A stretch of 64,000 bases of DNA from an uncultured Ectothiorhodospiraceae bacterium (GTDB lineage Bacteria; Pseudomonadota; Gammaproteobacteria; UBA6429; Thiohalophilaceae), in contig CAMYOL010000065.1 in the NCBI GenBank assembly GCA_947260005.1, positions 1-64,000 of the forward strand, given 5' to 3'. Under the pieces are notes generated by a model, which saw only the letters and a program-made list of their open reading frames with translations, ran no database searches and was not told the DNA's origin. Below, one piece after another: positions 16,921 through 52,095 of the stretch. The translations under genes and the position numbers were made by a program. Numbering within the stretch: position 1 is the stretch's first letter; the number at the start of each line of letters is the position of its first letter.

Positions 16921-16955
16921 CTGTCACCTATCTGTGACAGCATTTCGAATATGGT
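16921..16955 (+). promoter_or_regulatory. Box promoter 1 (20-bp box plus -10)
   Basis: CTGTCACCTATCTGTGACAG at 16921-16940, then 9 nt, then TATGGT (16950-16955). The start codon is 32 nt downstream. The box reads both as a 6-bp dyad (CTGTCA/TGACAG) and as CTGTSA direct repeats 11 bp apart. Confidence 0.8.
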
Positions 16956-19055: not shown

Positions 19056-19090
19056 CTGTCAGTTATCTGTGACAGTGGTTCCGCTATGTT
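19056..19090 (+). promoter_or_regulatory. Box promoter 2
   Basis: CTGTCAGTTATCTGTGACAG (19056-19075), 9 nt, TATGTT (19085-19090). The leader sequence GTTAAAGCCATAGTCAAAAC is repeated in unit 5 at 28163. Confidence 0.82.
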
Positions 19091-23215: not shown

Positions 23216-23250
23216 TTGTAATCTATCTGTGACAGAAGGTGGACTATGGT
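23216..23250 (+). promoter_or_regulatory. Box promoter 3
   Basis: TTGTAATCTATCTGTGACAG (23216-23235) matches the consensus at 17 of 20 positions; the right half is perfect. TATGGT lies at 23245-23250 after the fixed 9 nt. The gap 23048-23215 before it holds nothing else recognised. Confidence 0.72.
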
Positions 23251-25158: not shown

Positions 25159-25193
25159 CTGTCAGCTATCTGTGACAGTACCCGGGATATGCT
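25159..25193 (+). promoter_or_regulatory. Box promoter 4
   Basis: Perfect consensus CTGTCAGCTATCTGTGACAG (25159-25178), 9 nt, TATGCT (25188-25193), start codon 31 nt later. Confidence 0.85.
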
Positions 25194-28131: not shown

Positions 28132-28166
28132 CTGTCAGTTATCCGTGACAGCACCTCTACTAAGTT
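28132..28166 (+). promoter_or_regulatory. Box promoter 5
   Basis: CTGTCAGTTATCCGTGACAG (28132-28151), 9 nt, TAAGTT (28161-28166), start codon 30 nt later. The leader is nearly identical to that of unit 2. Confidence 0.82.
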
Positions 28167-28349: not shown

Positions 28350-28372
28350 TATTGATGCAAAGGAGAAGTATG

Positions 28373-29131: not shown

Positions 29132-29187
29132 TGTCTGTTCTTATCAATCCTCATGCCACTGACCCGTGTTAACAGACACGGGTCAGT
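29131..29187 (+). promoter_or_regulatory. Alternative hairpins overlapping box 6
   Basis: ACTGACCCGTGT (29158-29169) pairs perfectly with ACACGGGTCAGT (29176-29187). AACAGACAC (29170-29178) can instead pair with GTGTCTGTT (29131-29139). The two structures exclude each other, and the right arm of the first enters box 6. There is no T-run, so termination is uncertain. Confidence 0.4.
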
Positions 29188-29214
29188 TATCTGTGACGGC
29201 ACCCAGGCTAGGTT
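29180..29214 (+). promoter_or_regulatory. Box promoter 6
   Basis: GGGTCAGTTATCTGTGACGG (29180-29199) is a weaker match, altered at both edges. TAGGTT (29209-29214) keeps the 9-nt spacing, and the start is 31 nt later. Confidence 0.7.
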
Positions 29215-30381: not shown

Positions 30382-30416
30382 CTGTCAGCTATCTGTGACA
30401 GCACTGCCGCTAACTT
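30382..30416 (+). promoter_or_regulatory. Box promoter 7
   Basis: Perfect consensus CTGTCAGCTATCTGTGACAG (30382-30401), 9 nt, TAACTT (30411-30416), start codon 33 nt later. Confidence 0.84.
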
Positions 30417-32139: not shown

Positions 32140-32174
32140 CTGTCAGCTATTTGTGACAGCACCTCGTTTAATTT
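32140..32174 (+). promoter_or_regulatory. Box promoter 8
   Basis: CTGTCAGCTATTTGTGACAG (32140-32159), one base from consensus, 9 nt, TAATTT (32169-32174), start codon 27 nt later. Confidence 0.84.
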
Positions 32175-34271: not shown

Positions 34272-34306
34272 CTGTCAGCTATCTGTAATACCTGTCCCTG
34301 TATAAG
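34272..34306 (+). promoter_or_regulatory. Degenerate box 9 upstream of the two-partner secretion operon
   Basis: CTGTCAGCTATCTGTAATAC (34272-34291) is perfect in the left 15 bases and decayed on the right. TATAAG (34301-34306) keeps the 9-nt spacing. The start codon is 188 nt away. The preceding stretch 34005-34271 shows no gene. Confidence 0.55.
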
Positions 34307-34489
34307 TTAGGGGTATTCGATCACAATATCCCTTATATAAATATCGGTAAAATAGTTGAAATTCATCCAATTAAAGGCCTGTTGCCTGATTTGGATCAAA
34401 ATCAACGTTTTGGTATTGGAGTAGAGTTTCAAAAAAGAACACGTAATGTCTATATAAACAAAGACTTATATAGCATGCGGCAGGGGTGA
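34289..34489 (+). pseudogene. Open frame resembling a PilZ-domain tail, no start
   Basis: An open frame without a usable start reads NIGKIVEIHPIKG and QRFGIGVEFQKRT, a pattern like the last strands of PilZ c-di-GMP-binding domains. It ends just inside the start region of tpsA. With no 5' part it is at best a remnant, and the similarity is a weak impression. Confidence 0.25.
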
Positions 34490-34494
34490 GAACA

Positions 34495-37314
34495 ATGAGC
34501 GGAAGGAAGGGAGACGGGAGTCCACGATTTGTTCGTGGATCACACTATATTATTAGTCTGACAATAGGCTTGCTAGCTACGACCACATCGGCCGAAGTGG
34601 TGCTCGATGGTAGCCTGGGTCAGAGCGGGGCGGTGACGGGCCCGGATTTTGCGATTACCCAGGGCATGGGTCAGACTCGCGGTAACAATCTTTTTCACAG
34701 CTTCAGTGATTTCAATCTCAACAGTAGTGAATCCGCGACCTTCAGTGGTGCCGCCAATATCAACAATATCATTAGCCGAGTAACCGGCGGTAATGCCTCT
34801 AACATCGATGGCACCATCAGCAGCACTATCAATGGTGCTGACTTTTATTTTATAAATCCTAATGGCGTGGTGTTCGGTGAGAACGCGACTCTAAATGTCA
34901 GCGGCTCGTTTTATGCCACGACGGCGGATTACGTGACCCTCGGCAGTGATGGCCGTTTCGATGCCAGCCAACCCGGTAACAGTGTGTTGACCGTGTCCAC
35001 TCCTTCCGCCTTTGGTTTTGTTGATGCCAGTATAGCTCCCATCACCGTCAATCGAAGTCAGCTTGCTGTTGCTGAGGGTGAGACCCTGGCCTTGATTGGT
35101 GGTGATATCCATTTGAGTGGTATTGAAGCTGTTTTTGGTAACGATGGAGGTACGTTGCGGGCAGCAAGTGGTCGGACTGAACTCATATCGCTCGCTTCAG
35201 TTGGGGAAGTCGACATGACAGACGATCCCGATGTCAGTAGTTTTCAAAACCTGGGTAACATCAGCATGGATCGAGGCACCTATATAAATACGCGGGGTGA
35301 TCCGGGTGGAACGATTTACATTCGAGGCGGCAACCTGGTGATAGAAAGTTCTTCGTTAACTTCAGCGACGACAGGTGATGTCGATCATGCTGGGATTGGT
35401 ATTGATATTGCCGTGCGTGGCGATCTGGAAATGCGTATTGTCCAAACTGGATATGATGCCACTACGGAAATTGTTTCATCCAGTTTCGGGACAGGCCGGG
35501 CAGGGGATGTTCGAATTCGTGCTGATCGGTTGATCATGCGCGGTGAAAATAATGTGAGTGACACAAGACCTGCCGGTGCATATACAGCTATTGCATCCCG
35601 TGCCTTTGGCAGTGGTGATGGTGGTGATATCACAGTCGATGTGCATGAAGTCTCGCTTGGCACTAATTCACAGATCGATACCCATTCCTTAGGGGGCGGT
35701 CATGCGGGTGATATTAGTTTGAACAGCAATAGCCTGGAGATTGTTGGAATCGAAGGGCCCAGCTCACGTATTTCGTCGTCGACTTTTTCCCCCGGTAATG
35801 CGGGTAGCTTGAATATTAACGCTAATAACATTTCTATCCAGGGTGGGACAAATAATTTTGTTGGTATTAGTAGTCAGGCTAGTAGCGCTTCCGGTGCCAA
35901 TGCCACATCCGGTGATATCAATATCACAACCGATCAACTAACTGTACGGGACGGCGCACAAATTAATGCAGACGTGTTCAGTGGTAGTGGCGACGCAGGT
36001 GATATCAATGTTAATGCTAATAGCATTGAGATCTCAGGAATTAACAACCGCGGTTTTTCCGCAGGTCTATTCTCTACAACCAGTGGTTTTAATACTCGTG
36101 GCAATGCCGGTGATATTAATGTCACCACCAATGATCTGACTTTGTCACAAGGTGGTCGTATCGATAACAGCGCCTATTCATGGGGAGCCGCCGGTAATAT
36201 TGATATCGTCGCTAATAACGTGCAGATATACGGTGCAGGTATTGCCGGTACCAGTTCGGGTTTATTTTCAATTAGCGGTTGGGTAGCAACACGGGGCGGC
36301 AACATCGATGTCGCTGCGGACCGTCTGGAATTGGTTGATGGTGGACTGATTAGCACGCAAACGGTAGGTATAGGCAACGGCGGTAATATAAACCTGGATG
36401 TTGATCGCTTATTGGTAACCGGCGTTGATTCTGTGAATGAGCTTGCTTCTGAGATTACCGCGTCGACAGTTGTTTTCTTATATCCCAACTATGCATTAGG
36501 TGACGGCGGCAGCATCAACATCAATGCCCGTGATGCAGAAGTATCTGACCAAGGTCGTATCTCGACAGCATCTAGTTCGGCCGGTGATGGCGGCACCACC
36601 ACGATTGATGCCGATACGATTATGGTGAGTGATAAGGGGATTATTACTGCCACCAGTACCAGCACGGGTCAGGCGGGTAATCTTAGTCTGAATACAACAG
36701 ACAGTCTGACAATTGATCATGCAAGTATCGAAACCTCGGCAGCGCAAAGCGATGGCGGTGATATTACAATCCGTGCAACCCAACTTCTTTATTTAAATGA
36801 AGGTTCGATTACAACATCAGTACAAAGCAGTACAGGCAATGGTGGTAACATCGATATCGATCCTGTTTTTGTCGTATTGAATCACAGCAACATCACTGCT
36901 GATGCACAAGGTGGTAACGGCGGTAACATCACCATCGTGGCAGCTAATTATCTAGCTTCACCCGATAGTAATTTGAGCGCTTCATCGAGCCTGGGTGTGG
37001 CAGGGACAGTCGTGGTGAATGCACCTAATAATGATATCAGTGCTGAACTTGAGGCCGTACCAGAACCGGCACCGGATGCAACGAAACATTTTCGTAATGA
37101 CTGTGTTGCCGTTGGCAGCGGTTTTAGTAGTTTTGTTGCGGCAGAAGTTGGGCCGCCGGCCAGTGGCAGCAGGGTCTATATACCGAGCAATTATATTCCC
37201 ATTGATAGAGTGAATGCGACGGAAGCCGTTCAGCATAGAAAGAAAATCAAACAAACAGGTAAACCCGCCTTGATACTTGCAAAACAAGGTGTGGATTGTC
37301 TTGCCCGTTTGTAA
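34495..37314 (+). CDS. TpsA-type exoprotein with filamentous hemagglutinin N-terminal domain
   Basis: About 939 residues. Signal peptide (ending near TTTSAEV), then the TPS secretion domain (about 37-300) with TQGMGQTRGNNLFHSFSDFN and INPNGVVFGENATLNVSG, which TpsB recognises. The rest is a long right-handed beta-helix of GDININA/GGNIDV-type repeats. A C-terminal Cys pair region (NDCVAVGSGFSSF, VDCLARL) ends the protein. GTG 34486 is an alternative start. It is followed by its TpsB transporter 32 nt later. Predicted role: secreted or surface adhesin. Confidence 0.9.
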   Translation: MSGRKGDGSPRFVRGSHYIISLTIGLLATTTSAEVVLDGSLGQSGAVTGPDFAITQGMGQTRGNNLFHSFSDFNLNSSESATFSGAANINNIISRVTGGNASNIDGTISSTINGADFYFINPNGVVFGENATLNVSGSFYATTADYVTLGSDGRFDASQPGNSVLTVSTPSAFGFVDASIAPITVNRSQLAVAEGETLALIGGDIHLSGIEAVFGNDGGTLRAASGRTELISLASVGEVDMTDDPDVSSFQNLGNISMDRGTYINTRGDPGGTIYIRGGNLVIESSSLTSATTGDVDHAGIGIDIAVRGDLEMRIVQTGYDATTEIVSSSFGTGRAGDVRIRADRLIMRGENNVSDTRPAGAYTAIASRAFGSGDGGDITVDVHEVSLGTNSQIDTHSLGGGHAGDISLNSNSLEIVGIEGPSSRISSSTFSPGNAGSLNINANNISIQGGTNNFVGISSQASSASGANATSGDINITTDQLTVRDGAQINADVFSGSGDAGDINVNANSIEISGINNRGFSAGLFSTTSGFNTRGNAGDINVTTNDLTLSQGGRIDNSAYSWGAAGNIDIVANNVQIYGAGIAGTSSGLFSISGWVATRGGNIDVAADRLELVDGGLISTQTVGIGNGGNINLDVDRLLVTGVDSVNELASEITASTVVFLYPNYALGDGGSININARDAEVSDQGRISTASSSAGDGGTTTIDADTIMVSDKGIITATSTSTGQAGNLSLNTTDSLTIDHASIETSAAQSDGGDITIRATQLLYLNEGSITTSVQSSTGNGGNIDIDPVFVVLNHSNITADAQGGNGGNITIVAANYLASPDSNLSASSSLGVAGTVVVNAPNNDISAELEAVPEPAPDATKHFRNDCVAVGSGFSSFVAAEVGPPASGSRVYIPSNYIPIDRVNATEAVQHRKKIKQTGKPALILAKQGVDCLARL

Positions 37315-37346
37315 TTCACTACGCACGACAAAAAAACAGTATTATT

Positions 37347-39002
37347 ATGAAACGACTATGGATTGTCTTGTTTTGTATGCTGCCAGTCATGGCCTGGTCG
37401 GTAACTTTACCTTACGATCAGCCGGTTAAGAAAAAGCTGCAGACACCCCCATTAAAAACTCTCGAAGAAGTCAAACCTCAAATTGAACTGCCGCCACCGC
37501 CAGAGGGGAAAGACCTGGCAGCCAGCGTTACAGTAACGGTTAAACAGTTTCGCTTTGAAGGTAACACGGTAATAAGTAGTGATGAACTGGCCACGGTCAC
37601 ACGCCCCTATGAAAATAAGCTATTGGATAGTTCACAACTGGAAGCCATTCGACAGGCGCTGAGTCGTTATTATCTCGACCGAGGGTTTGTGAATTCGGGA
37701 GCGATATTACCAGATCAAAAAATTGAGAATGGAATTATTACCTTTCGGATAATTGAAGGTAGACTCGGAATTATCCAGCTTAGCGGGCAACAAAAACTAC
37801 ATCACAGTTATATTTATGACCGGATTGTGTTGGGTGCAGAGGCTCCACTCAACGTTAAACAATTACAGGAAGCGTTATTTTTATTGCAACAGGATCCACG
37901 CATCAAGACCATTAATGCACGTTTACAACCGGGAGCAACGGTGGGTGAGAGTGTGCTGTATGTTGATGTAAAAGAAGACAAACCCTATGCTGTCAGGCTC
38001 AATTTAAATAACCATCGCCCTCCCAGTGTTGGTGCGGAGCGACTTGAGCTAAGGTTAGTACACTATAATCTGACAGGCTATGGTGATGAGATTAACTTTC
38101 GCTATGGGTTTACTAGAGGTCTCAATGATTATGACCTGTTGTATAGTTTTCCACTGAACGCGAATAACACTCGCCTGAATGTATATTATCGTGAAACTGA
38201 TTCTGAAGTGGTTGAGGAACCTTTTGCATCCTTGGATACTATAAGTTTATCAACTACTGCTGGTGTGGGAGTGAATTATCCCGTTTTCCGGAATAGTGAT
38301 GCTCAACTGGACCTGAGTTTAAATTTAGAGAAGCGCAAGAGTGAAACTTTTTTACTGGGCCAGCCTTTTTCATTCGAAAGTGGACCACAGGACGGAGTGA
38401 GCAGGGTGAGCGTCATGCGTTTTGCCCAGTCCTGGTTTAAGCGAGATTACTTGCGTGTTTTGGCATTACGTTCGACATTTAGTTTTGGTGTTGATGCCAT
38501 CGACGCAACGATTAATGATGATGCACCAGATGGTAAGTTTCAAACCTGGCTGGGTCAGTTTCAATGGCTGGAACGTTTTCAAGCTAACCAAAGTGATTTG
38601 ATCTTTAGGAGTAACCTTCAACTGAGTGATGATCCGCTGTTGCCGTTAGAACAGTTTGCCATTGGTGGGGTGAACAGTGTCCGTGGTTACCGCGAAAATC
38701 ACGCAGTCGGGGATAATGGTATTAATTTGTCTTTGGAGTACCGCTATCCCTTTGTAAATACGAGTGATAATGTCTGGCAGCTGGCGATCTTTACTGATTA
38801 TGGCCGAGTCTGGAACAAGCAACGTTCAAGTATTGAACCGAATGATTTATATAGTGTTGGCTTAGGATTGCGCTGGACAGATAACCAGGGCATGGGGTTT
38901 GATCTTTACTGGGGCGAAGGATTAAGAGAAATCGCAGATAACAATCAAAATGATTTACAAGATAACGGTATACACTTTCAGTTCTATATGGGATTGTTCT
39001 AG
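37347..39002 (+). CDS. TpsB outer-membrane transporter (ShlB/FhaC/HecB family)
   Basis: 551 residues. Signal peptide (cleavage near AWSV), a Pro-rich linker, POTRA domains (about 60-135, FRFEGNTVISSDEL, and 140-215), then a 16-stranded barrel with the family motif GVNSVRGYRE near residue 435 and a terminal Phe-rich strand ending FYMGLF. It exports the TpsA protein encoded just upstream. The start at 37347 was chosen because the signal peptide begins there; an upstream TTG frame overlaps tpsA. Confidence 0.93.
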   Translation: MKRLWIVLFCMLPVMAWSVTLPYDQPVKKKLQTPPLKTLEEVKPQIELPPPPEGKDLAASVTVTVKQFRFEGNTVISSDELATVTRPYENKLLDSSQLEAIRQALSRYYLDRGFVNSGAILPDQKIENGIITFRIIEGRLGIIQLSGQQKLHHSYIYDRIVLGAEAPLNVKQLQEALFLLQQDPRIKTINARLQPGATVGESVLYVDVKEDKPYAVRLNLNNHRPPSVGAERLELRLVHYNLTGYGDEINFRYGFTRGLNDYDLLYSFPLNANNTRLNVYYRETDSEVVEEPFASLDTISLSTTAGVGVNYPVFRNSDAQLDLSLNLEKRKSETFLLGQPFSFESGPQDGVSRVSVMRFAQSWFKRDYLRVLALRSTFSFGVDAIDATINDDAPDGKFQTWLGQFQWLERFQANQSDLIFRSNLQLSDDPLLPLEQFAIGGVNSVRGYRENHAVGDNGINLSLEYRYPFVNTSDNVWQLAIFTDYGRVWNKQRSSIEPNDLYSVGLGLRWTDNQGMGFDLYWGEGLREIADNNQNDLQDNGIHFQFYMGLF

Positions 39003-39017
39003 AGGGGTTTGATCTGA

Positions 39018-41333
39018 GTGAGAACATTGATGCAAAAACAAATAATTCGCATGTTTAGCCAGACGAAAATGGTCATAATCGCTTTGTTATTCATTTCTGT
39101 AGTATCGCATAGTCTGGCACAAACAAATGGAGTCACTGCAGGCTATCAGTTTGCAAATTCGGGCGACTATGAACAGGCCCTGCAGGAGTGGCAACGGGCA
39201 TCGCAGCAACTGGAAAAAGAAAATGATGTTGCAGGTTTGGCGCTGTTATATCAGCGCATGGGGTCTGCCTACCAGGCAATGGGTCAATACCAAAAAGCGT
39301 TGCAGGTATTACGCAAGGCCAGTGCCCTGGTCAAACAACTCGATAAACCGTCCTTGCAATATAAAATTACAGCCAACATTGCCAGTGTGCACGTGATGCA
39401 GGGTAACTTGAAGATAGCAGAGCGTTTACTACAAGAGACATTGTTTGTAGCAAAACGAATTAATGACTATTCGCTACAAGCAGCCATATTGAATGATCAT
39501 GGAAATATGTTGGCTGCCAATGGTTATCATGACGGTGCGACCTCTCGTTATTACCAGAGTTTACACCTGGCGGAGGAACATGGGCTCAAAGATCAACGGC
39601 TAAGGGTTTTGATCAATCTTGCAACGGTATCGGCACATTATCGTGAACATGAAAAGTATTTGGATTATATAAAGCAAGCATTACAACTGATCAAGGTCGA
39701 AACAATAAATTATGCCCATGTTGATTATGTTTTGCGTATGAATGAATTGATGTTGAACATGCAGGCAGGAGCGGGGCCGCAACGCAAGGAAATACTAGAG
39801 ACTGCACATGCATCAATCAACGTGATTTATCATTTTTTAAAATCCGGTGATAACCATCAACATCAACGGTCTTATACACTCGGTTTGATGGGCTGGTTAT
39901 ATCATATTAATGGAAATCAAGAACATGCCAGAGAACTAATGCAACGTGCCAGTTTTCATGCGCAGCAGGCTGATGCACAGGAACTGCTTTATCGTTGGCA
40001 GTGGCAACTGGGCCGATGGGAAAAACAGCAGGGGAAACTACAACAGGCACTAGTCTATTTTCGTAATGCACAGCTTGCTTTTGATAACTTAAACCCGCTA
40101 TTCACGTGGACCTATATAAACCCAGACTACTCGGATGACAGTCCAGTCGTATTTCATTACGAGCTGGCAGACCTGCTATTGCACAAAAGTTCCACCGAGA
40201 AGGAGCGTGAAAAAAGAAACAAGTTATTACATGAAGTACGCCAGACTATTGAAGGCATTCGCAGTGCCGAGCTACAGGATTATTTTCGTGACAGTTGCAT
40301 CACCCGAACTCGGCAGAAGGTATCCAACATTGATCACAATATAGATAAATCCAGTCTAGTCATATATCCATTGGTGTTTGTCGATCGTCTGGAGATCCTG
40401 GTCAGCCAGGGATCACAGATTACGCGTTACACAACTTCTATCCGGGCAGATGAGCTAAAGGCATCAATAAAACAATTTCGCGTTAAATTAGAAAAACGTC
40501 GCACTCGTGAATATCTGCCACTTGCACAACAACTATATGATTGGATAATTCGGCCGTTGGATGAAGCAAATCGTTTTAGCGGAATTGATACGATGATACT
40601 GATTCCTGATTTAGCCTTACGCGGTTTACCTTTTTCTGCCTTACATGATGGTAATGTTTTTTTAATTGAGAGAATTGCGCTTGCAACCAGCCCGGGCTTG
40701 CAATTGACGGATCAACGACCATTACCAAGAGATAATATTTCAATTTTGTTGGCAGGATTGACTGAATCTGTCCAGGGATTTCCTGCGCTGGTACATGTTA
40801 GTAGTGAAGTTCAGAATATCCAAAATATTTATCATGGTGAGGTCCTGTTAGACCAGGCGTTCAGGCGGCAACAAGTTAATAATAAATTATCGGCACAACA
40901 ATTTAACATTGCTCATATTGCGTCTCATGGAGAGTTTCGTGGTGACGTAAAGAAATCATTCATTGTCACTTATGATGGCAAAATGTCGGTGAATGATCTT
41001 TCATCGGCTATCGGCTCTACACGGTTTCGGCCACAGGCCATCGAGTTATTGACTTTAAGCGCTTGTTATACTGCGGCAGGAGATGACAAGGCCGCACTGG
41101 GTTTAGCGGGTATTACGGTGAAGGCAGGGGCAAGAAGCGCACTTGCCTCCTTATGGCCAATCAATGACATGGCAACAGCGGAATTGATGATTGAATTTTA
41201 TACTCGTTTAAAACAGACAAAGCTTGGTAAAGCCCAGGCCTTGCGAGAAGCGCAATTAAAATTACTGCAGGATAAACGTTACCGGCATCCAGGTTACTGG
41301 TCACCGTTTTTATTGATTGGGAACTGGCTGTAG
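39018..41333 (+). CDS. CHAT-domain protease with TPR repeats
   Basis: 771 residues from GTG 39018 (ATG 39030 possible). A signal-like segment ends at SHSLAQ. Then six or more TPR repeats (about 40-370; GDYEQALQEWQRAS, GQYQKALQVLRKAS), a linker, and a C-terminal CHAT domain (caspase-like, clan CD). The catalytic dyad is visible as His in IAHIASHGEF and Cys in LLTLSACYTAAGDD; ALASLWPINDMAT is also typical. It follows tpsB by 15 nt. TPS operons with CHAT-TPR proteins recur in bacteria; I infer processing or surveillance of the exported protein. Confidence 0.88.
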   Translation: MRTLMQKQIIRMFSQTKMVIIALLFISVVSHSLAQTNGVTAGYQFANSGDYEQALQEWQRASQQLEKENDVAGLALLYQRMGSAYQAMGQYQKALQVLRKASALVKQLDKPSLQYKITANIASVHVMQGNLKIAERLLQETLFVAKRINDYSLQAAILNDHGNMLAANGYHDGATSRYYQSLHLAEEHGLKDQRLRVLINLATVSAHYREHEKYLDYIKQALQLIKVETINYAHVDYVLRMNELMLNMQAGAGPQRKEILETAHASINVIYHFLKSGDNHQHQRSYTLGLMGWLYHINGNQEHARELMQRASFHAQQADAQELLYRWQWQLGRWEKQQGKLQQALVYFRNAQLAFDNLNPLFTWTYINPDYSDDSPVVFHYELADLLLHKSSTEKEREKRNKLLHEVRQTIEGIRSAELQDYFRDSCITRTRQKVSNIDHNIDKSSLVIYPLVFVDRLEILVSQGSQITRYTTSIRADELKASIKQFRVKLEKRRTREYLPLAQQLYDWIIRPLDEANRFSGIDTMILIPDLALRGLPFSALHDGNVFLIERIALATSPGLQLTDQRPLPRDNISILLAGLTESVQGFPALVHVSSEVQNIQNIYHGEVLLDQAFRRQQVNNKLSAQQFNIAHIASHGEFRGDVKKSFIVTYDGKMSVNDLSSAIGSTRFRPQAIELLTLSACYTAAGDDKAALGLAGITVKAGARSALASLWPINDMATAELMIEFYTRLKQTKLGKAQALREAQLKLLQDKRYRHPGYWSPFLLIGNWL

Positions 41334-41334
41334 C

Positions 41335-43143
41335 TTAATCCCAATACAGTAACCAACCTGTGACTTTGCCATCTTGAGTCTGGAAGGTGATGCCTACGTC
41401 TATATAAGCCAGGCTTGTGCCATGGAGGGTTTGTTCAATCCGATCAGCTACACCATACAGCTTTACGACCTGATCGAGTGGATAACCAATTCTGATACCA
41501 CGGGCACTGCTGCCGCGGTAGTTTTTACTTGTAACTAAGATACGTATCTCGTTTACTTCAGATAATGTTTGAATACCGTTGTGGTAGCTGGATAGCATGT
41601 GTGCCGTAGCATCAAGATTAAATGTTTTACTTGTCCGTTTTTGCCAGTTAGGTGGGAGTTCTTCCAGGTAGGTTCCAACTTCGATTCCATCCAGTTTTTC
41701 TCGCAGTTTCTTCGCGGAAGGTTTGTTTTTTGCGATTGGATCATGACCTGTATGTTTTATCACTCGCTGTGCCCAGGCACTTTGGGTGTCCAGCTTTAAA
41801 TAGGATTGCCAGTATTTGTCAGCCAACACATTATCATTGGTTCGTTGCGCAATCACGCCAAGATTGAAGATGGCGGGTGCATAGCTTGGGAAGTGACGTA
41901 GTGCGCGATGTAAATAGTCACGTGACTTGATAACATCTTTAGTATAATAAAAAGCGACACCCATATTGCTTAGTAGCATAGGGTCAAGAGGATTAAACTT
42001 CTCTGCATCCTGCAGAGTGGCAATCGCTTTGTAAGGCTGATTTAATAACAACCAAGCGCTAGCTAGATTATTGTAGCTGATTATATATTCCGGATCGAGG
42101 GCAATGGCTTTTTGGTAGTTATCGATAGCGTTGTTGATGTATTGTCTGAATAAATTATCCTGAGTGGGTTTTGAACGATATGCTAGCCGATTGGCACGGT
42201 TTAGCGGATCGATGGACAACGCAAGCTGAAATGGGAGTTGTTTTTGTTCTTGCGTGGATGGTGTGTAATGTTGGATTGCCGATTGATGCCAACTGCTGGC
42301 AAGATTATGATAAACCTCACGACCAGGGTAGTATTGGCGAAACTCATTAAATGCCAGTTGTGCGCGTTGAAAATCACCAGCTTGATAAAACCATAGTCCA
42401 AGATTAAATAAGTCCCCTTTGTTGGCGACTTGTTGCAAGCGGGACCGAACTGCTGCAGCACGTTGATGTGCACTTGGGTGGGTAGGATTATATTTTTTTC
42501 CTCTCTGCAGTCGCTTAGGATTTATTCGAAATTCCCATTGCGTGAAGAAGCTATCTTTATTATTGGTGTCGATAATGGCATTGACATCATATCCAGCCAT
42601 CATCGTGTAGATTATTCCCAGTTCATCAGCACGTAATTCTTTAGCAAGGATGCGATCACTGTTTTTAACTCTCTTTTGCAACTCGTCCACTAGCTTGCGA
42701 TTTCTTGCATGGCTTGCCTGCATGGCCTGGAAAAACTTCATATGCCAGAAATCATCTTCCAGTTGATGGGCGATTTCGTGGGCCAACACGAAGGCGAGCC
42801 GGGCATCGCCTTTAGTATCATCGAGATAGCAGATGTCCAGTACCTTTTGGGAAAGAATAATCCAGCCATCAGGGATGGAAATGGGTAAGGCCATATTATG
42901 TGGATCTTCTTTGATAATTAGCAGGCGAGGTTCCACGCCAGGGCGGTGGCCTGCTGCTTTCACTAAACGTTTGAAGATTTTGTATGCCTGGTTGACTCGA
43001 GCATCATCGTATTTTGTCAAAGCAGTATAATTTTCCTGCCAGAAATCGATCCGTTCTTTTGGATTGGGGATTGCGGACATGACCGGGTTCATCGAAGAGA
43101 GGATAAAGGTGAAAACCAGTATTAGGTACGAATATCGATGCAT
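41335..43143 (-). CDS. M48-family zinc metalloprotease with TPR repeats
   Basis: 602 residues with a signal peptide (cleavage near VMSA), an M48 peptidase domain with FVLAHEIAHQLEDDF (HExxH) and the downstream Glu in KELRADELGI, then TPR repeats (about 265-440; YQKAIALDPEYIISYNNLAS, DYLHRALRHFPSYAPAIFNL) and a C-terminal domain of about 100 residues. Similar in layout to periplasmic BepA-type proteases. It starts 2 nt after the anti-sigma gene and ends one base from the convergent CHAT gene stop. Confidence 0.88.
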   Translation of the reverse strand: MHRYSYLILVFTFILSSMNPVMSAIPNPKERIDFWQENYTALTKYDDARVNQAYKIFKRLVKAAGHRPGVEPRLLIIKEDPHNMALPISIPDGWIILSQKVLDICYLDDTKGDARLAFVLAHEIAHQLEDDFWHMKFFQAMQASHARNRKLVDELQKRVKNSDRILAKELRADELGIIYTMMAGYDVNAIIDTNNKDSFFTQWEFRINPKRLQRGKKYNPTHPSAHQRAAAVRSRLQQVANKGDLFNLGLWFYQAGDFQRAQLAFNEFRQYYPGREVYHNLASSWHQSAIQHYTPSTQEQKQLPFQLALSIDPLNRANRLAYRSKPTQDNLFRQYINNAIDNYQKAIALDPEYIISYNNLASAWLLLNQPYKAIATLQDAEKFNPLDPMLLSNMGVAFYYTKDVIKSRDYLHRALRHFPSYAPAIFNLGVIAQRTNDNVLADKYWQSYLKLDTQSAWAQRVIKHTGHDPIAKNKPSAKKLREKLDGIEVGTYLEELPPNWQKRTSKTFNLDATAHMLSSYHNGIQTLSEVNEIRILVTSKNYRGSSARGIRIGYPLDQVVKLYGVADRIEQTLHGTSLAYIDVGITFQTQDGKVTGWLLYWD

Positions 43144-43145: not shown

Positions 43146-44183
43146 TTATCCCATGATTTGTTGTATGACATTGATATGTTGTAGAACCATTGCATAATCT
43201 TCATCAGCCAGGCTGGATGATTGCATGATAACGAGAATCTGTTTGAGTTTTGCTATTGTCCCTTTTGGCAAGTTTTGCGCTTGCATAGCATCAAGCAGAT
43301 ACTCTGCTGTGTGAGATTGCCTAAGTACCCTAGGATTTTTAACAGCAGCGGCAAGTTTTATATCGTTCAACCAGCTGCCCAGCTGAAACAGCAGTCGATC
43401 CTTTTCAGATTGATTGGCTGCCTGTTTTTCCAACTCTGGTTGTAGCTCGGCAATCGCCTTTAGCAGACTGGTTTGCTCGGTAGCCCCTTTGCTGATGGTT
43501 GCATTAATTTCATTCAGCCTTTGGTTGACTGGCATATTCGACAGTTCATTACCCAGTAAAAGAAGATGTTGTTGCAGGGCGTTTATGTCGTTACCAGCCA
43601 GTAATGCCAGTGACTCTGAATAGATCATCCCTGTTTTGAAAAAATCAGCCTGTGCAGGTTGATTGCCGAAGCCGTAGCTATTGTTATCGGCGACGATAGT
43701 AATATGTTGTTTGATCGCGGTGGCAAGATTTTGCTGACTACCTAATTGTGCCTGTAGTTTCGCCGAGTCAAACTGGATTGATGCAGGTTGAAAGCTCCAG
43801 AAGACGATGCCACCAATGGCAATGGTCAACATGATTGTTTGCATGGCCAGTTGAGGCCAGCGATTGGGTAGTAACCAATCTTGCAGTGTTTGCAAGAGAG
43901 AATTTTCTGTCCTGACGCTATCGGTAGCTACGTACTCGGGGGCAGTTTGCTCCTGTTTCTTATAGGCATCCAGGACTTGGTCAGGAAAGGCTTCCCAGAA
44001 TTTTTCATCTGGCTGAGGGGCTGGTACCTCACTGACTTGCGCAATAGTTGTTTGCAATTCTTTATACTCAAGTTGGCATTCCGGGCAGCTGCGTAAGTGT
44101 TTTTCGAGTTCTATTGTGGCCTCTGCATGGAGTGATCCCTCAATATACTCGATCAGTAATTGTTGGCTCTGTTCACAGTTCAT
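43146..44183 (-). CDS. Anti-sigma factor with zf-HC2 domain
   Basis: 345 residues. The N-terminal zinc-binding anti-sigma domain has Cys3, His29, Cys33 and Cys36 (HLRSCPEC). One membrane helix (about 115-133) follows, then a large periplasmic helical domain of about 210 residues, much bigger than in simple anti-sigma factors. It should hold the sigma factor encoded 10 nt upstream at the membrane and release it on an envelope signal. Confidence 0.88.
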   Translation of the reverse strand: MNCEQSQQLLIEYIEGSLHAEATIELEKHLRSCPECQLEYKELQTTIAQVSEVPAPQPDEKFWEAFPDQVLDAYKKQEQTAPEYVATDSVRTENSLLQTLQDWLLPNRWPQLAMQTIMLTIAIGGIVFWSFQPASIQFDSAKLQAQLGSQQNLATAIKQHITIVADNNSYGFGNQPAQADFFKTGMIYSESLALLAGNDINALQQHLLLLGNELSNMPVNQRLNEINATISKGATEQTSLLKAIAELQPELEKQAANQSEKDRLLFQLGSWLNDIKLAAAVKNPRVLRQSHTAEYLLDAMQAQNLPKGTIAKLKQILVIMQSSSLADEDYAMVLQHINVIQQIMG

Positions 44184-44193: not shown

Positions 44194-44745
44194 CTATTCT
44201 GGATTCAGGCGTTTGCGTAGTGCCTGGATCGCATGGTGATAATTTGCCTTAGCAGTACCAGTCGGGCAACCAAGAATGTTTGCAATTTCCTGGAAACTGC
44301 AATCCTGATAAAGGTGTAAATACAGGGTCTGGCGTTGTCTTTCTGGCAAACGAGTAATGGCGCTGTTGAAAATTTTCCGCTCTTCGTCACCATGTACGAG
44401 TTCATAGTCGACACTCTCAGTTCGGGTATCTAGCTCGTCCGGAGCAACCGGATCAACCGGGTGGCGTGCCTGGCTGCGATAATAGTTCTTACATTGATTG
44501 ATGGCGATTTGATACAACCAGGTTTTGAAGCTGGCCTCACCGCGGTACTGTTCTGCTTTTCGGAACACTTGTATAAACACCTGCTGGCAAATATCTGCTA
44601 CATCTTCATGTTGTCCAATATGGCGCCTCACGAAACTGTACAGCTGACGCTGGTAGCGATTCAGCAACGCTTTAAACGCTGCCTCGTCCTGCTTATGTAG
44701 GAATCTGGATAACAGTACTTCATCTTGTAAAACGTCATTATTCAC
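44194..44745 (-). CDS. ECF-type RNA polymerase sigma factor
   Basis: 183 residues with sigma region 2 (FSFVRRHIGQHEDVADICQQ-like block near 33-60 and ASFKTWLYQIAINQCKNYYR) and region 4 (LPERQRQTLYLHLYQDCSFQ, then EIANILGCPTGTAKANYHHA). It starts at GTG 44745. First gene of the sigma, anti-sigma, protease operon. An ECF-like promoter of the same form as the one facing the BTAD gene lies just upstream, suggesting autoregulation. Confidence 0.92.
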   Translation of the reverse strand: MNNDVLQDEVLLSRFLHKQDEAAFKALLNRYQRQLYSFVRRHIGQHEDVADICQQVFIQVFRKAEQYRGEASFKTWLYQIAINQCKNYYRSQARHPVDPVAPDELDTRTESVDYELVHGDEERKIFNSAITRLPERQRQTLYLHLYQDCSFQEIANILGCPTGTAKANYHHAIQALRKRLNPE

Positions 44746-44758: not shown

Positions 44759-44788
44759 ATTTTGACACCGCGACTCGGCAGCCTGTTT
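44759..44788 (-). promoter_or_regulatory. ECF-type promoter for the sigma factor operon
   Basis: On the minus strand AAAC, 18 nt, GTC-A-AAAT. The divergent promoter at 44855 has the same AAAC-N18-GTC-N-AAAT layout. The predicted leader before GTG 44745 is only about 10 nt. Confidence 0.5.
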
Positions 44789-44854: not shown

Positions 44855-44884
44855 AAACACCTTTTTCCTCTCCGGCGTCTAAAT
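44855..44884 (+). promoter_or_regulatory. ECF-type promoter for the BTAD regulator
   Basis: AAAC (44855-44858), 18 nt, then GTC-T-AAAT. Known ECF promoters often have an AAC -35 core and a CGTC -10 core spaced 16-17 nt, which fits here (AAC to CGTC, 17 nt). Confidence 0.55.
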
Positions 44885-44928: not shown

Positions 44929-45939
44929 ATGTCGCACTCTCCATACACAGCTGAACAGGGTATTTCAAGGTTTGAAGCCGTTTCAACCGACCTGGATCAG
45001 GCCATCCATTCCCGGTTGGTATTGATTTTGTCGGCACTGGAGTCTGGAGATGTTCAGGCTGGATTGGCTTATATAAAGGGACTGATTGGTAAAATGAGCA
45101 GGAACCCATCTGATGAGTGGGGGAACAACGGGGATCATGGCGATGACAATGTCGTGTCCATGCACAACGTGAAACCTGCTCAATTAGGCACCAAAACCTC
45201 AAGTCTCCCGGTGACCATTTATACTTTGGGACGTTTTGCCGTGCTTAAGCAGGGAAAACCACTCCAGTTTCGTACAAAAGCACAGAAAAAACCGCTTGAT
45301 CTACTCAAGGTAATTATTTCCCTGGGGGGGCGTTCGGTATCCAAGCTGCACATAGCAGAACTGTTATGGCCTGATTCAGAAGGGGATGCTTCTATTTCAG
45401 TGGTTAATACGACGTTGTCTCGTTTGAGAAAACTCATCGGCAAAGAGGCAATCCTGACCGAGAGTGGACGCTTCACCTTGAATCCGGAGTTATGCCAGGT
45501 TGATTGTTGGGACCTTGAGAAGTCCCTGAATGCAATCAAGACCAATGATCATGACAAAAAGGATGCAAGTGAGTTTGTGCGTCAAGCGCTTGTCTATTAC
45601 CAGGGTAGTTTTCTAGCGGGAGAGGACGATGGCTGGTCGGTGTCACGAAGAGAACGGATACGCAGCCGTTTTTTGCATACGATGGCACATCACGGTCAGT
45701 TATTAATGGCAGAGGGTGACTGTGAGTGCGCCATAACACTTTACACCAAGGTGCTGGAAATCGACGATTTGAACGAAGAATTTTATATCAATTTGATGCG
45801 CTGCCAGATCTCACTCGGACGAGTTGCGGAGGCGATGCAGGTTTATCAACGTTGCAAGCAGACCCTGAACGAGACGCTAGGTATTGATCCGTCCCGTGAA
45901 GTGACTGCACTTTATCAGATAATGACCGAAAATAATTAA
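44929..45939 (+). CDS. SARP-like transcriptional regulator with BTAD domain
   Basis: 336 residues. An N-terminal segment of about 95 residues is unassigned. An OmpR-type winged-helix domain follows (about 98-185; YTLGRFAVLKQGKPLQF, LLWPDSEGDASISVVNTTLS, RLRKLIGKEAIL), then a bacterial transcriptional activation domain of TPR-like helices (about 200-335; EFYINLMRCQISLGRVAEAM). No NTPase domain, so it is a short SARP type. AAAGAGGAG precedes the ATG. It is divergent from the sigma operon and is the best candidate to bind the 20-bp boxes. Confidence 0.87.
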   Translation: MSHSPYTAEQGISRFEAVSTDLDQAIHSRLVLILSALESGDVQAGLAYIKGLIGKMSRNPSDEWGNNGDHGDDNVVSMHNVKPAQLGTKTSSLPVTIYTLGRFAVLKQGKPLQFRTKAQKKPLDLLKVIISLGGRSVSKLHIAELLWPDSEGDASISVVNTTLSRLRKLIGKEAILTESGRFTLNPELCQVDCWDLEKSLNAIKTNDHDKKDASEFVRQALVYYQGSFLAGEDDGWSVSRRERIRSRFLHTMAHHGQLLMAEGDCECAITLYTKVLEIDDLNEEFYINLMRCQISLGRVAEAMQVYQRCKQTLNETLGIDPSREVTALYQIMTENN

Positions 45940-46005: not shown

Positions 46006-46040
46006 CCGTCAGTTATTTGTGACAACGAGTGATATAGGGT
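46006..46040 (+). promoter_or_regulatory. Box promoter 10
   Basis: CCGTCAGTTATTTGTGACAA (46006-46025), 9 nt, TAGGGT (46035-46040). The leader to GTG 46096 is 55 nt, longer than in most units. Confidence 0.65.
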
Positions 46041-46095: not shown

Positions 46096-46296
46096 GTGGA
46101 AAGTTATATTTTACACATATACCGGAAAGATGGATTACCTAGACAAGATCTGTCAAGGCGGAAGACCGACAAATGCCATATGACAGGAGTGCTTGAGTTA
46201 GTCGCCAGTGAACAGCGTTTGCCTTTTCATAATGCCGAGGAGCTATGGGACTTGTTAGCGAATAATAATCGTAAAAAAATATGTGACGCCAGTTAA
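46096..46296 (+). CDS. 66-residue hypothetical protein of the box regulon
   Basis: Starts at GTG 46096 after AGGGGG. The product (MESYILHIYRKDG to NAEELWDLLA) has no signal peptide or helix and looks like a small soluble cytoplasmic protein, unlike the other box-driven genes. Position 156 nt downstream of the BTAD gene suggests a regulatory accessory role, but this is inference. Confidence 0.6.
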   Translation: MESYILHIYRKDGLPRQDLSRRKTDKCHMTGVLELVASEQRLPFHNAEELWDLLANNNRKKICDAS

Positions 46297-46373: not shown

Positions 46374-46408
46374 TTGTCAGCTATCCGTGATAGCGCGATG
46401 AGTATGCT
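46374..46408 (+). promoter_or_regulatory. Box promoter 11
   Basis: TTGTCAGCTATCCGTGATAG (46374-46393), 9 nt, TATGCT (46403-46408), start codon 30 nt later. It drives a truncated gene. Confidence 0.7.
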
Positions 46409-46438: not shown

Positions 46439-46555
46439 ATGAAAATGCTCTTCAGAATTATATTGTGCCTACATTGTATGATTGGAATACCAAGCTGTTG
46501 GGCTGGTGATTTGACTGTACCAAACACATTCAGTTCAGTTACACCTCACCAATAA
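46439..46555 (+). pseudogene. Truncated IPxTF-family gene
   Basis: Reads a signal peptide (MKMLFRIILCLHCMIGIPSC then WAG) and DLTVPNTFSSVTPHQ before a TAA at 46553. It matches the N-termini of the genes at 28373 and 30450 and stops inside the signature. AAGAAAGG precedes the ATG. The rest of the gene is gone; the following 170 nt show nothing recognisable. Confidence 0.75.
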
Positions 46556-48012: not shown

Positions 48013-48858
48013 TTAACTAAGAGCGTTACGTAATTTTTTCATCGCGTTATTCTCTAACTGACGAATGCGCTCGGCAGAGATACTGTACTTGTCAGCCAGA
48101 TCCTGTAATGTGCTCTTGTCTTCATTTAACCAGCGTTGTTGTACAATGTCCTGGCTGCGTTCGTCTAAGGTCGACAACGCATTCAGTAAACGATTTTTGT
48201 TATGCGCTTCCCACTGGTTGTTTTCATTTTCTTCAGCTGGACCATCAGAATGATCCTGTAAAAACATCGCCGGTGAGGTAGGCGCGTCGTCGTCATTGTC
48301 ATCGCGCAAGTCAAAGCCAATATCCATTCCGCTCATACGAGATTCCATCTCAACAACATCTTTGGTACTGACGCCGAGATCTTTGGCAACCTGTTGAACT
48401 TCATTATGACTAAACCAGCCAAGTTGCTTTTTTGAACTGCGAATGTTGAAAAACAGTTTACGCTGAGCCTTGGTGGTGGCAACTTTAACAATACGCCAGT
48501 TGCGTAAGATAAACTCGTGAATTTCAGCGCGAATCCAGTAGACCGCGAATGAAACTAAACGTACACCGACGTTCGGGTCGAAACGCTTAACGGCCTTCAT
48601 TAGTCCGATATTACCTTCCTGGATTAAATCGGCCTGTGGTAAACCATAACCGGAGTAACTCCGTGCAATATGGGCGACAAAGCGCAAGTGGGCCAGAATC
48701 AATTGCCGTGCAGCTTCAAGATCGCCATTCTCATGCAGTTTGATGGCAAGGGCCTTTTCTTGTTCAGCACTTAAAACATCGATTCCTCGAATGGCCTGCA
48801 TATAGGCATCAAGGCTGCCAGCAGGAACAGGCATTTGCATGGTGGTTGAATTGCTCAT
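48013..48858 (-). CDS. rpoH: RNA polymerase heat-shock sigma factor (sigma-32)
   Basis: Directs transcription of heat-shock genes. 281 residues from ATG 48858, which has GAGGT about 11 nt upstream; an in-frame ATG at 48876 lacks one. Region 2 is clear ([59 protein letters not shown]), with the RpoH box region ([17 protein letters not shown]) and region 4 ([20 protein letters not shown]). It is transcribed toward the island. A CIRCE operator overlaps its promoter. Confidence 0.97.
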
Positions 48859-48892
48859 ATTTTGTGTGTACCTCATCTATTAGGGTTGATTA

Positions 48893-48922
48893 ATACTAGC
48901 ACTCTAAACAATAGAGTGCCAA
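48893..48922 (-). promoter_or_regulatory. CIRCE operator over the rpoH promoter
   Basis: On the minus strand TTGGCACTC-N9-GAGTGCTAG (48896-48922) matches CIRCE (TTAGCACTC-N9-GAGTGCTAA), the HrcA site, at 16 of 18 arm positions. The same stretch holds a sigma-70-like promoter, TTGGCA, 18 nt, TAGTAT (48893-48898), so HrcA binding would block it. Confidence 0.75.
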
Positions 48923-48978
48923 TAATCGCGAAAGTTCACTGAGAAAAAGGCTATATTTCAGGCATTTAACCTTAATAT

Positions 48979-50364
48979 TTAGTGGGTAAAAGAGGGCACT
49001 GGTTCGGAAAAATCAGGGTCGTCATTCCATGGGGAGGCGGTTGAGCCTTGCTGGGTGTAAATGTAAATACGGTTTCGCCCCGCCTCTTTTGCAGAATACA
49101 GGGCCTTATCCGCCATCGCGAGAAAGCGAGTGAGCGTCTCATCGGGATGGTCTGCGGTTGAGGCTAAGCCAATGCTGACGGTGATATCAACGCCCGCCGG
49201 TTTCAAGGTAGCGATGTCATTACGGAGTTGTTCCGCCCTTTCCAGCATTTGATCGGCATTAAGATTTGGCAGCAAGATACAAAACTCCTCACCTCCAAAA
49301 CGCACGACCATGCCATCCGGGAAAGAATCATTCAGTTTCTCACCCAGTTCGGCTAAAACGTGGTCTCCGGTAATATGCCCCAGTGTGTCGTTGATGGTTT
49401 TAAAGTGGTCGATATCAATCAGCATGCCCCAGACGGGCTGGTAGTCACTGTTGCTAATGTAAGCCTCACCATTGTCAACCAGATAGCGTTTGGAACGAAC
49501 GCCAGTAAGGCTGTCTGTGACGGCAATCCAGCGCATATCCTCGGCTTGTTGTTTCAGGGCATCATATTGGTGTTTAATCAGCAACAGGGCACGAACCCGC
49601 GCAATCATCACTTCCTCAACAATCGGTTTGGCGACGAAGTCATTGGCACCGGCATGAAAGACTTCAACCTGAGTCGACTGATCGTCGGTGCTGGTGAGAA
49701 CCAGGACCGGGCATTCCTGCTGAGACATATGCATTTTGGCACGAATGGCGTGCAGCAAATCACCACCGGTCATTTCACCTTCCAGGATGAAATCGGTAAT
49801 GACCAGATCGTATTCGGAAAGCGTTTCTTCATCGCCTTTTTGCTCGACGATGAGCCGCAAGGCTTCTTCAGCCGTGGCCACCTGAGTGACTTTGAGACCA
49901 TGCTTCTCAAGGATTTTGGTGATTACGGCCGCGGCGGTTGCGCTGTCTTCTACAAATAGAATATGGCCGATCAAACCGGAATGACGCTGTACGAAAGAAC
50001 GGACAAATCCACCAAAGGCTTTATAGCCTTGAGACTTGTCAAAATAATCGGTGACACCGGCTTCAAAGCCCTCTCTGAGCAAACGACTGTCGGCATCGCC
50101 AGAGACGACAATAATCGGGATATAGTTATGGGTTTTAGAGGTTCTGACTTCTCTGCTGAGCGCCAGACCGTCCATATCAGGCAGCATGAGTGCGGTGGAG
50201 ATTAAGTCGTACTTGCTATGGTTGAGCAGAGTGAGTGCTTCCTCACCGGTCGCACAGGGGTAAATCTCGGCATTTTTAACCTCTTCCTGTAGGATTCGGG
50301 TCAAAATAGCTCGAGTCACGGAAGATCCGTCTACGACGATAATGCGTGTTTTATGCTCATTCAT
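48979..50364 (-). CDS. Diguanylate cyclase with two receiver domains (PleD-like)
   Basis: 461 residues: REC1 (about 6-125), REC2 (about 135-265), GGDEF (about 285-445). REC2 has a full phospho-acceptor set (FVEDS, Asp in LVITDFIL, Thr in VLTST, Lys in VAKPI). REC1 appears degenerate: VDGSS replaces the acidic pair, and the acceptor position in STALMLPDMDG is Ala. The GGDEF domain has an active GGEEF site and DIDHFKTINDTLGH. The I-site Arg is missing (SFPD), so product inhibition is unlikely. Makes c-di-GMP. Confidence 0.9.
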   Translation of the reverse strand: MNEHKTRIIVVDGSSVTRAILTRILQEEVKNAEIYPCATGEEALTLLNHSKYDLISTALMLPDMDGLALSREVRTSKTHNYIPIIVVSGDADSRLLREGFEAGVTDYFDKSQGYKAFGGFVRSFVQRHSGLIGHILFVEDSATAAAVITKILEKHGLKVTQVATAEEALRLIVEQKGDEETLSEYDLVITDFILEGEMTGGDLLHAIRAKMHMSQQECPVLVLTSTDDQSTQVEVFHAGANDFVAKPIVEEVMIARVRALLLIKHQYDALKQQAEDMRWIAVTDSLTGVRSKRYLVDNGEAYISNSDYQPVWGMLIDIDHFKTINDTLGHITGDHVLAELGEKLNDSFPDGMVVRFGGEEFCILLPNLNADQMLERAEQLRNDIATLKPAGVDITVSIGLASTADHPDETLTRFLAMADKALYSAKEAGRNRIYIYTQQGSTASPWNDDPDFSEPVPSFTH

Positions 50365-50446
50365 AGTGTTTAAGAATACATCATTATAGTAAGTTTATAG
50401 TTGATATATTGACCAACCTTTTAATTAATTACGGCCTGATTGAGCT

Positions 50447-51430
50447 TTAGCGTGGCTCAATTTCATGTAAGTGCCGACTAACGGCAATCCATGAGCCCCC
50501 CAGGCCAAGTCCTATGCTCAACACTAGTATGGTAAATATCGTACCAAAATCCATTTTATGTAGGCTAAATTCACTCTGATAGAGTCCGGCAAGATTTTCA
50601 ACAGGGCCGCTAATCAGGAGCAGGCTCACAAAAACGAGTATTAGCGCAATTAAACCACCGATAAAGCCGTACCAAAATCCAGTATATAGGAATGGGCGGC
50701 GAATAAAGCCGTTCGTGCCTCCAATGAGCTTCACAATCACAATTTCATCACGTCGGTTCTGGATGGCCAGACGAATGGTATTACCGACCACGAGTAACAC
50801 CCCGATCGACAACATCAGGCCCAATACGGTGACGCCGCGACGTACGATGTCCATAATGGCGTATAGACGCTGCACCCATTCACTATCCAGTTGGACTAAT
50901 TCAATTTGTTTGTAGGCCCCCAGTTGTTTGGCGAGTTGCTCGACCTGTTTAGCATCATTGTGCTGTAGTTTTGGGGTGACCACGAGTGTCGCCGGGATCG
51001 GGTTCTCATCGAGCGCCTTAATCGCAGCCTTGTATCCACTGCGTTCCCTGAATTCTTCTAGCCCTTTTTGTTTCGAAATGTACTCAACTTCGGCGATCTC
51101 GGGTAGTTTACGCAGTTTATTGGCAAGTAACTGTGCTTGTTTATCCGATACTTTTTGTTTCAGGAATAAAGAGACCTTGGCGGCGCCATCCCAGCCGCCA
51201 CTGATCTGTTGAGCATTATTCAACAGGATATGCATGCCTGTGGGCAAGGCCAGGGCGATGCCAATGACGGCTGCTGTCATAAACAAATTAAACGGAGCCC
51301 GCCATAAGATTCCGAGACTATAAAAAAAGACCTGGGCGTGGCGCAGAAAATAGGTTTTTATGCTGGTGAGCAAACCTGGCCGGTCTCGACCTTCTACATC
51401 TTCAAATAAGGGCTCGTTACGATCGTTCAT
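50447..51430 (-). CDS. ftsX: Cell division protein FtsX
   Basis: Membrane partner of FtsE; links septal peptidoglycan hydrolase control to division. 327 residues with a cytoplasmic N-terminus, four membrane helices (first about 39-62, the others after 210) and a periplasmic loop carrying AAKVSLFLKQKVSDKQAQLL. The start overlaps the ftsE stop by 4 nt. Confidence 0.95.
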   Translation of the reverse strand: MNDRNEPLFEDVEGRDRPGLLTSIKTYFLRHAQVFFYSLGILWRAPFNLFMTAAVIGIALALPTGMHILLNNAQQISGGWDGAAKVSLFLKQKVSDKQAQLLANKLRKLPEIAEVEYISKQKGLEEFRERSGYKAAIKALDENPIPATLVVTPKLQHNDAKQVEQLAKQLGAYKQIELVQLDSEWVQRLYAIMDIVRRGVTVLGLMLSIGVLLVVGNTIRLAIQNRRDEIVIVKLIGGTNGFIRRPFLYTGFWYGFIGGLIALILVFVSLLLISGPVENLAGLYQSEFSLHKMDFGTIFTILVLSIGLGLGGSWIAVSRHLHEIEPR

Positions 51431-52095
51431 GGATTAGCTGAATCTCCAACCAATTGCCCATTTTTCAATACCAGGATGCGTTGCTGCAGGCGTTTAATCA
51501 TATCCAGGTCATGACTGGCGACCATCACCGTTACCCCAACCTGGCGGAATTGCTCAAATATTTGCATGATTTCCCAGGACAAATCGGGATCAAGGTTTCC
51601 GGTCGGCTCATCAGCAAGTAACAGAGGGGGTTTATTGACGACGGCACGGGCAATGCCAACGCGTTGTTGTTCACCACCTGAGAGGGTAATCGGAAAGCTT
51701 TTTTCTTTATTTAACAGGCCAACTTTGTCTAATGCGGCACGAGCGCGACGGGCAATCTCACGTGGCGGTTGTCCGGAGATAATTAAAGGCAAAGCCACAT
51801 TGTCATAAACGGTGCGGTCGAACAGGAGCTGGTGATCCTGGAAAATAATACCAATATTACGCCGGAACATCGGGATGCGACGTGATTTTACCTTGGAGGT
51901 ATTCTCGCCATTAATTAGGACCTGACCGCGGGAAGTGCGTTCGATCAATGCAATCAGTTTCAATAAGGTGCTTTTACCGGCGCCTGAATGCCCGGTTAAA
52001 AAGGCCATTTCGCCTTGTTGTAGCTCAAAGCTGACGTTAGACAGGGCATCGTGTCCGCTCTCATAGCGTTTGCAGGCTTGGATAAACTGGATCAT
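51427..52095 (-). CDS. ftsE: Cell division ATP-binding protein FtsE
   Basis: ABC ATPase of the FtsEX complex. 222 residues with Walker [10 protein letters not shown], the ABC signature [14 protein letters not shown], Walker [14 protein letters not shown] and the H-loop in MVASHDLD. It lies between ftsY and ftsX in the standard order. Confidence 0.97.

Follow-up and report, generated by a model that had tools for sequence, protein, structure and literature searches.

The window, by which we mean the whole stretch of 64,000 nucleotides that was analysed, carries a genomic island of genes for exported proteins next to a regulatory module. The gene at 44929..45939 (+) encodes a small SARP-type regulator of 336 residues, a BTAD protein and the proposed activator of the island, assigned from its Pfam BTAD domain, a match to AfsR and AF2/Foldseek. 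Divergent from it lies the gene for an ECF sigma factor (44194..44745, −; Pfam Sigma70_r2 and r4_2). A zinc-finger (zf-HC2) anti-sigma factor (43146..44183, −; Pfam among the bases) and an M48 peptidase with TPR repeats (41335..43143, −; Pfam) are encoded on the same strand, and the latter is 45-46% identical in the relatives G005 and G028. Domain searches place a CHAT protease-like protein with TPR repeats at 39018..41333 (+), a TpsB (ShlB/FhaC-type) transporter at 37296..39002 (+) and a TpsA exoprotein with its TPS domain at 34486..37314 (+). The left edge of the island carries a transposase-like gene in two overlapping pieces (15560-16611), identified by eye only. The right flank at 48013-53253 looks like core chromosome, with a sigma-70-type sigma factor, a GGDEF response regulator, FtsX, an ABC ATPase and an SRP54-type GTPase.

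The BTAD domain (Pfam PF03704) covers residues 204-330 of the regulator with 93.6 bits (45538..45918, +). Trans_reg_C at residues 119-178 reaches 24.7 bits, slightly under the Pfam cut-off of 26.2. Residues 100-330 match AfsR by sequence with an E value of 1.7e-11, and the N-terminus carries about 93 extra residues. The AF2 model has a mean pLDDT of 73, and Foldseek on this model returns AfsR in the transcription complex at its promoter (8k60/8hvr) as the top match, followed by EmbR, each over about 250 residues. On this model, the protein has the SARP architecture of an N-terminal OmpR-type winged helix followed by BTAD. The predicted helix at residues 153-170, DASISVVNTTLSRLRKLI (45385..45438, +), is assigned as the recognition helix of the winged helix from the AF2 model and a gapless alignment with AfsR. 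AfsR contacts DNA through R87, T88, S91, R92, R94 and K95, of which T88 and R92 touch bases (PMC10936776). Five of these six contact residues are kept in the alignment: the base-contacting T88 and R92 correspond to T161 and R165, and S91, R94 and K95 to S164, R167 and K168. The one change is R87, which is replaced by N160. The sequence-only reading had called this protein the only SARP-like regulator in the island. It is the sole BTAD protein on the contig; genome-wide it is not alone, as three more BTAD paralogues are encoded on other contigs, a small SARP on C22 and large SARPs on C26 and C44.

Within the window, CTGTCA-N5-CTGTGA with up to two mismatches has 22 matches, compared with 4.25 ± 1.95 expected, and 0 of 100 shuffles gave a count as high. 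Eleven boxes form one family with the consensus ATCTGTCAG[C/T]TATCTGTGACAG, all on the plus strand. Their PWM scores range from 25 to 37, and no other site in the window exceeds 11.4. A search of the 3.7-Mb genome for the strict form, allowing up to three mismatches, gave eight sites, every one inside the island, and the reversed control gave no match. The 11-bp distance between the starts of the half-sites CTGTCA and CTGTGA, as first read from the letters alone, is exact in the island boxes. The second half-site is TGTGA or TGTAA in all eleven and never TGTCA. A −10-like TANNNT lies 12 bp past CTGTGA in ten boxes, with TATAAG in the remaining one. This gap is fixed and amounts to 9 to 12 bp according to where the repeat unit is ended. 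No −35-like hexamer was found at the usual distance before the island box promoters; the box sits in its place. A CACCTC...GAGGTG hairpin after the box was also considered and was dropped because its first arm, located between the box and the −10, would be left out of the transcript; GAGGTG resembles a ribosome-binding site.

Boxes 1 to 9 all lie upstream of exported proteins, namely lipoproteins, domain-bearing surface proteins and TpsA. Fn3, cadherin, PKD, FG-GAP, beta-helix and TPS domains are found among these targets, and the lipoproteins have poly-Gly after the Cys. Box 1 (16921..16937, TATGGT at 16950) precedes a lipoprotein gene (16988-18982), whose homologue on G028:C32 (40% identity) is also located behind a box. 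Box 2 (19056..19072, TATGTT) lies ahead of an exported beta-helix/cadherin-like protein (19118-21826), box 3 (23216..23232, TATGGT) ahead of a PKD lipoprotein ending at 24772 and box 4 (25159..25175, TATGCT) ahead of a lipoprotein ending at 27075. Downstream of box 5 (28132..28148, TAAGTT) are a lipoprotein of 50 residues (28197-28349) and the gene at 28352-29131. This two-gene unit of an NWDxMVWDQxxW small lipoprotein and a "GTPAxAxEVN" protein stands behind a box in the window, in G014:C24 and in G022:C3. The small lipoprotein ends in SSNWDSMVWDQDNWE and is kept with its next gene at both of these loci (L194 and L206, respectively). Box 6 (29180..29196, TAGGTT) is followed by a lipoprotein ending at 30274, box 7 (30382..30398, TAACTT) by an exported protein (30450-31337) and box 8 (32140..32156, TAATTT) by an FG-GAP lipoprotein (32202-34004). 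Box 9 (34272..34288), which carries the TATAAG variant, is located 214 bp upstream of tpsA.

The last two boxes lie beyond the regulator gene. Box 10 (46006..46022, TAGGGT) starts 67 bp after the regulator stop codon, in agreement with its earlier placement just behind this gene. Under it, and directly behind the regulator, is a small ORF of 66 residues, VESYILHIYRKDG... (46096..46296, +), which has no match in Pfam or NCBIfam. Relatives of this ORF (SYIVRIYRR...) adjoin BTAD genes in G022, G137, G118, G183 and G352. Box 11 (46374..46390, TATGCT) lies upstream of a truncated member of the same surface-protein family, 38 codons reading AGDLTVPNTFSSVTP and then a stop (46439..46555, +). Since this remnant keeps its box, the island appears to gain and lose surface-protein cargo.

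A different motif marks the regulatory genes themselves. An ECF-type promoter motif, AAAC-N15-CGGCGTC-like, is found at 44855..44879 (+), 50 bp before the regulator start, and the motif search places a second one at 44764..44788 (−), pointing to the ECF gene. Window hits of AAAC-N15-[CG]G[TC]GTC lie at 44788−, 44855+ and 46309−, against an expectation of about 0.3 per 64 kb. Each of the six module genomes (window, G005, G028, Ww186, L128 and G335) has the motif ahead of its ECF gene, and in the window, G005, G028, Ww186 and G335 it also precedes the SARP gene. In G335, the SARP and ECF genes are on separate contigs, and the motif is still located before the SARP gene. This suggests that the ECF sigma factor transcribes the SARP gene. 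The presence of the motif upstream of both genes further suggests a cascade from ECF to SARP to surface proteins. L128 has the ECF module with no BTAD gene in reach, and no box followed by a suitably spaced −10 was found there. Its surface gene at 8027 is instead preceded by an ECF-like promoter, which shows one deviation.

The weightiest evidence comes from related genomes. Related loci were collected by a protein search over 58 genomes, after which the neighbourhoods were retrieved. G028 and G005 contain the module in full, with BTAD, divergent ECF sigma, zinc-finger anti-sigma, M48/TPR, CHAT/TPR, TpsB and TpsA, and a short contig of Chromatiales bacterium Ww186 contains it from BTAD through CHAT. 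A scan of the genome collection with the M48 protein gave seven loci. Before tpsA and other exported genes, G005 and G028 have perfect direct repeats, TGTAACTTATCTGTAAC, TGTAACTTAATTGTAAT, TGTAACCTCTATGTAAC and TGTAATCCGTATGTAAT, of the non-palindromic form TGTAAY-N5-TGTAAY. Three of these four repeats are followed by TANNNT or a near match at 11 bp from the second copy, a distance like that in the window. The homologous tpsA is boxed upstream in three genomes, the window's own, G005 and G028. When TGTNA pairs with periods from 7 to 18 were compared, a pile-up was seen at 11 only; direct repeats at the target promoters with the 11-bp spacing of SARP sites are present in the window and in the relatives at this one period. 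Position 164 of the helix is mostly His in genomes with TGTAAY boxes and Ser in the window, which is suggestive only.

G005 and G028 were chosen for having the gene, and their boxes alone are therefore not an unbiased sample; the unbiased part of the comparison is the pattern scans over the 58 relatives and over 369 genomes of the class. Among the 58 relatives, TGTMA-N6-TGTRAY-N11-TANNNT has 22 sites in 18 BTAD-positive genomes of the family and 5 in 19 negatives. With the strict box, defined here as this pattern plus the ATY core of the window boxes, 16 sites remain in 5 of the 18 positive genomes (the window's own, G005, G014, G028 and G032) and none in the 19 negatives (Fisher p = 0.02, or 0.04 leaving out the window's own genome). 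The new sites in G028, G005, G014 and G032 are mostly ahead of lipoproteins or exported proteins. Class-wide, a strict site is present in 4 of 52 BTAD-positive and 4 of 317 BTAD-negative genomes (p = 0.016), with one match apiece in the negatives and none in the reversed control. The co-occurrence of box and regulator homologs that the sequence-only reading had proposed to look for is thus found in the family, with modest statistics at the level of genomes. Its refuting case, a box in genomes lacking the regulator, is absent from the family negatives and does appear in the four class negatives. G014 likewise has three boxes, and only large SARPs were found in it. An exact orthologue of the regulator would hence not be required, unless it was missed in the assembly. 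Several genomes are fragmented metagenome bins, so that the absence of a gene is weak evidence. The boxes at homologous genes are stronger evidence than the genome-level statistics.

The association is narrow in its range. For the majority of BTAD genes in the class, no box of this kind lies close by, and in G335, which encodes a small SARP, no TGT-type repeat was found ahead of its tps genes. A general enrichment of boxes beside any BTAD gene of the class was not retained: it is weak, with four pairs at period 11 and 0 to 2 at each of the others over 61 loci, and we therefore confine the claim to this subgroup. Large SARPs of about 1070-1090 residues adjoin surface lipoprotein genes at L195 (G014:C152) and at L206 (G022:C3), and the surface lipoprotein genes by the large SARP of G022 have TGTA-type period-11 repeats.

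Regulators of the PhoB/OmpR type also bind 11-bp-spaced direct repeats that replace the −35. The island boxes could accordingly be Pho boxes for the host PhoB or sites of another OmpR-type response regulator. This is the most serious rival, because CTGTCA is a Pho half-site and the genome has a PhoB. The first half-site of the island boxes coincides with the E. coli Pho motif CTGTCAT (PMC4415409), and a true PhoB is encoded at C51:31918-32586 (353.9 bits) in addition to about ten further OmpR-like regulators. The host's own Pho boxes, however, are of a different make. Those at pstS and pstC, CTGTCATACTACTGTCAC and TTGTCACAATTCTGTCAT, are canonical, with TGTCA in both halves and CTGTCA in the second, whereas the second half in the island is TGTGA or TGTAA; no island box has CTGTCA(T/C) in both half-sites. 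The pst boxes score below 9 bits with the island PWM, compared with 25-37 for the island boxes. The boxes of the relatives carry TGTAAY twice, unlike Pho boxes, and they track the SARP module. We consider the Pho reading unlikely. Much the same low probability is given to a paralogous SARP, large (C26 or C44) or small (C22), as the real or an additional binder. The large SARP on C26 has the same helix end, TTLSRLRK, as the island protein, the large SARP of G022 is located about 2 kb from box-bearing surface genes, and G014 combines boxes with large SARPs. Against this, the strict box is confined to the island in this genome, so that none lies near the C22, C26 and C44 paralogues, and the island gene, the sole BTAD gene on its contig, is syntenic with boxes in G005 and G028.

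Direct reading of the boxes as promoters by the adjacent ECF sigma factor would fit its membership in the same conserved module. We reject this reading, as the sigma factor's own motif has been found: AAAC-N15-[CG]G[TC]GTC precedes the ECF gene in every module genome and is absent from all 11 boxes in the window motif search. A 20-bp repeat element 12 bp from TANNNT is also unlike an ECF promoter, and the ECF-only module of L128 has no such box promoter; the chance that this sigma factor reads the boxes is very slight. Equally improbable is a reading of the box in which an unrelated repressor binds the inverted repeat CTGTCA-N8-TGACAG as a symmetric dimer. The CTGTCA/TGACAG arms are real in the best boxes, with a column similarity of 0.54 for the dyad and 0.65 for the direct repeat, but AT is conserved upstream of both direct copies rather than symmetrically. 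The dyad was rejected on the sites of the relatives, where it is found in 0 of 14 and the direct repeat is perfect. The direct-repeat reading prevails because the perfect TGTAAY-N5-TGTAAY repeats cannot be palindromes and share the −10 spacing and homologous targets with the window.

Regulators of the SARP kind are best known from antibiotic-producing Streptomyces. To our knowledge, they are described almost entirely as activators of antibiotic production in actinomycetes, and our literature search, with its partial open-licence coverage, found no study of a SARP controlling surface proteins in Gammaproteobacteria. The closest parallel is AfsR of Streptomyces coelicolor, a large SARP (PDB 8hvr, 8jke, 8k60) with the same OmpR-type winged helix and BTAD. 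It binds two 11-bp direct repeats that overlap the missing −35, and 8 bp separate the 3′ repeat from the −10 (PMC10936776); in the island this distance is 9 to 12 bp, according to where the unit is taken to end. T88 and R92 are conserved. In contrast to AfsR, the island protein has no NOD or TPR extension and carries its N-terminal addition of about 93 residues, the half-sites are TGTCA/TGTGA, and the predicted targets are surface proteins in a gammaproteobacterial host. EmbR of Mycobacterium tuberculosis (PDB 2fez, 2ff4) shares the winged helix and BTAD fold (Foldseek E about 2e-8) and has a C-terminal FHA domain that the island protein does not have. PhoB and the Pho box share the winged-helix fold, the direct repeats with 11-bp period and the first half-site CTGTCA; the island protein differs in having no receiver domain, and its boxes differ in the second half-site TGTGA, in not being located at pst genes and in their TGTAAY form in the relatives. 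ActII-4, RedD and DnrI, small cluster-situated SARPs of actinomycetes, are likewise short SARPs within a target cluster, which is presumed for the island. They control antibiotic biosynthesis, while the regulon proposed for the island SARP comprises surface lipoproteins and two-partner secretion, with an ECF sigma factor probably acting above the SARP.

We conclude that the island's SARP-type regulator very probably turns on the surface-protein genes through the two-copy box ahead of each, and that it is itself probably switched on by the neighbouring sigma factor. The earlier proposal of the BTAD protein as the likely binder of the boxes gains support from the repeats in the relatives, the predicted AfsR-like fold and the aligned contact residues. 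Two protomers would sit side by side, one on TGT[C/A]A and the other on TGT[G/A]A, half-sites that are spaced by 11 bp and closely followed by a −10 of the sigma-70 type (TANNNT). With the box in place of the missing −35, the regulator may recruit RNA polymerase to genes whose products are exported lipoproteins, beta-rich surface proteins and the TpsA exoprotein. Transcription of the regulator gene would start from a promoter of the divergently encoded ECF sigma factor. A signal that frees this sigma factor from its zinc-finger anti-sigma factor would then raise the SARP and in turn switch on the surface proteins. Binding, activation, the cascade and its signal are what we infer here; the boxes with their spacing and conservation, the module, the predicted fold, the contact residues and both motifs are read from sequence. 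As a whole, a SARP activator at the boxes that is under the divergent ECF sigma factor is the best explanation, and we hold it to be likely.

Beyond that, small and large SARPs together could represent a regulatory code for exchangeable surface-protein islands in this gammaproteobacterial family. An ECF sigma factor would feed the SARP, and the SARP would read TGTNA-N6-TGTNA boxes. Half-site and helix would shift together, TGTCA/TGTGA with Ser164 and TGTAAY mostly with His164. Incoming genes would then join the regulon by carrying a box. Taken jointly, we give this wider reading slightly less than an even chance. The boxes provide a ready target list, a definition of the regulon and a testable ECF-to-SARP cascade, and the natural occurrence of both TGTCA/TGTGA and TGTAAY half-sites opens a route to SARP specificity. 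If true, the finding would show how a genomic island holds many unrelated surface-protein genes under a single control.
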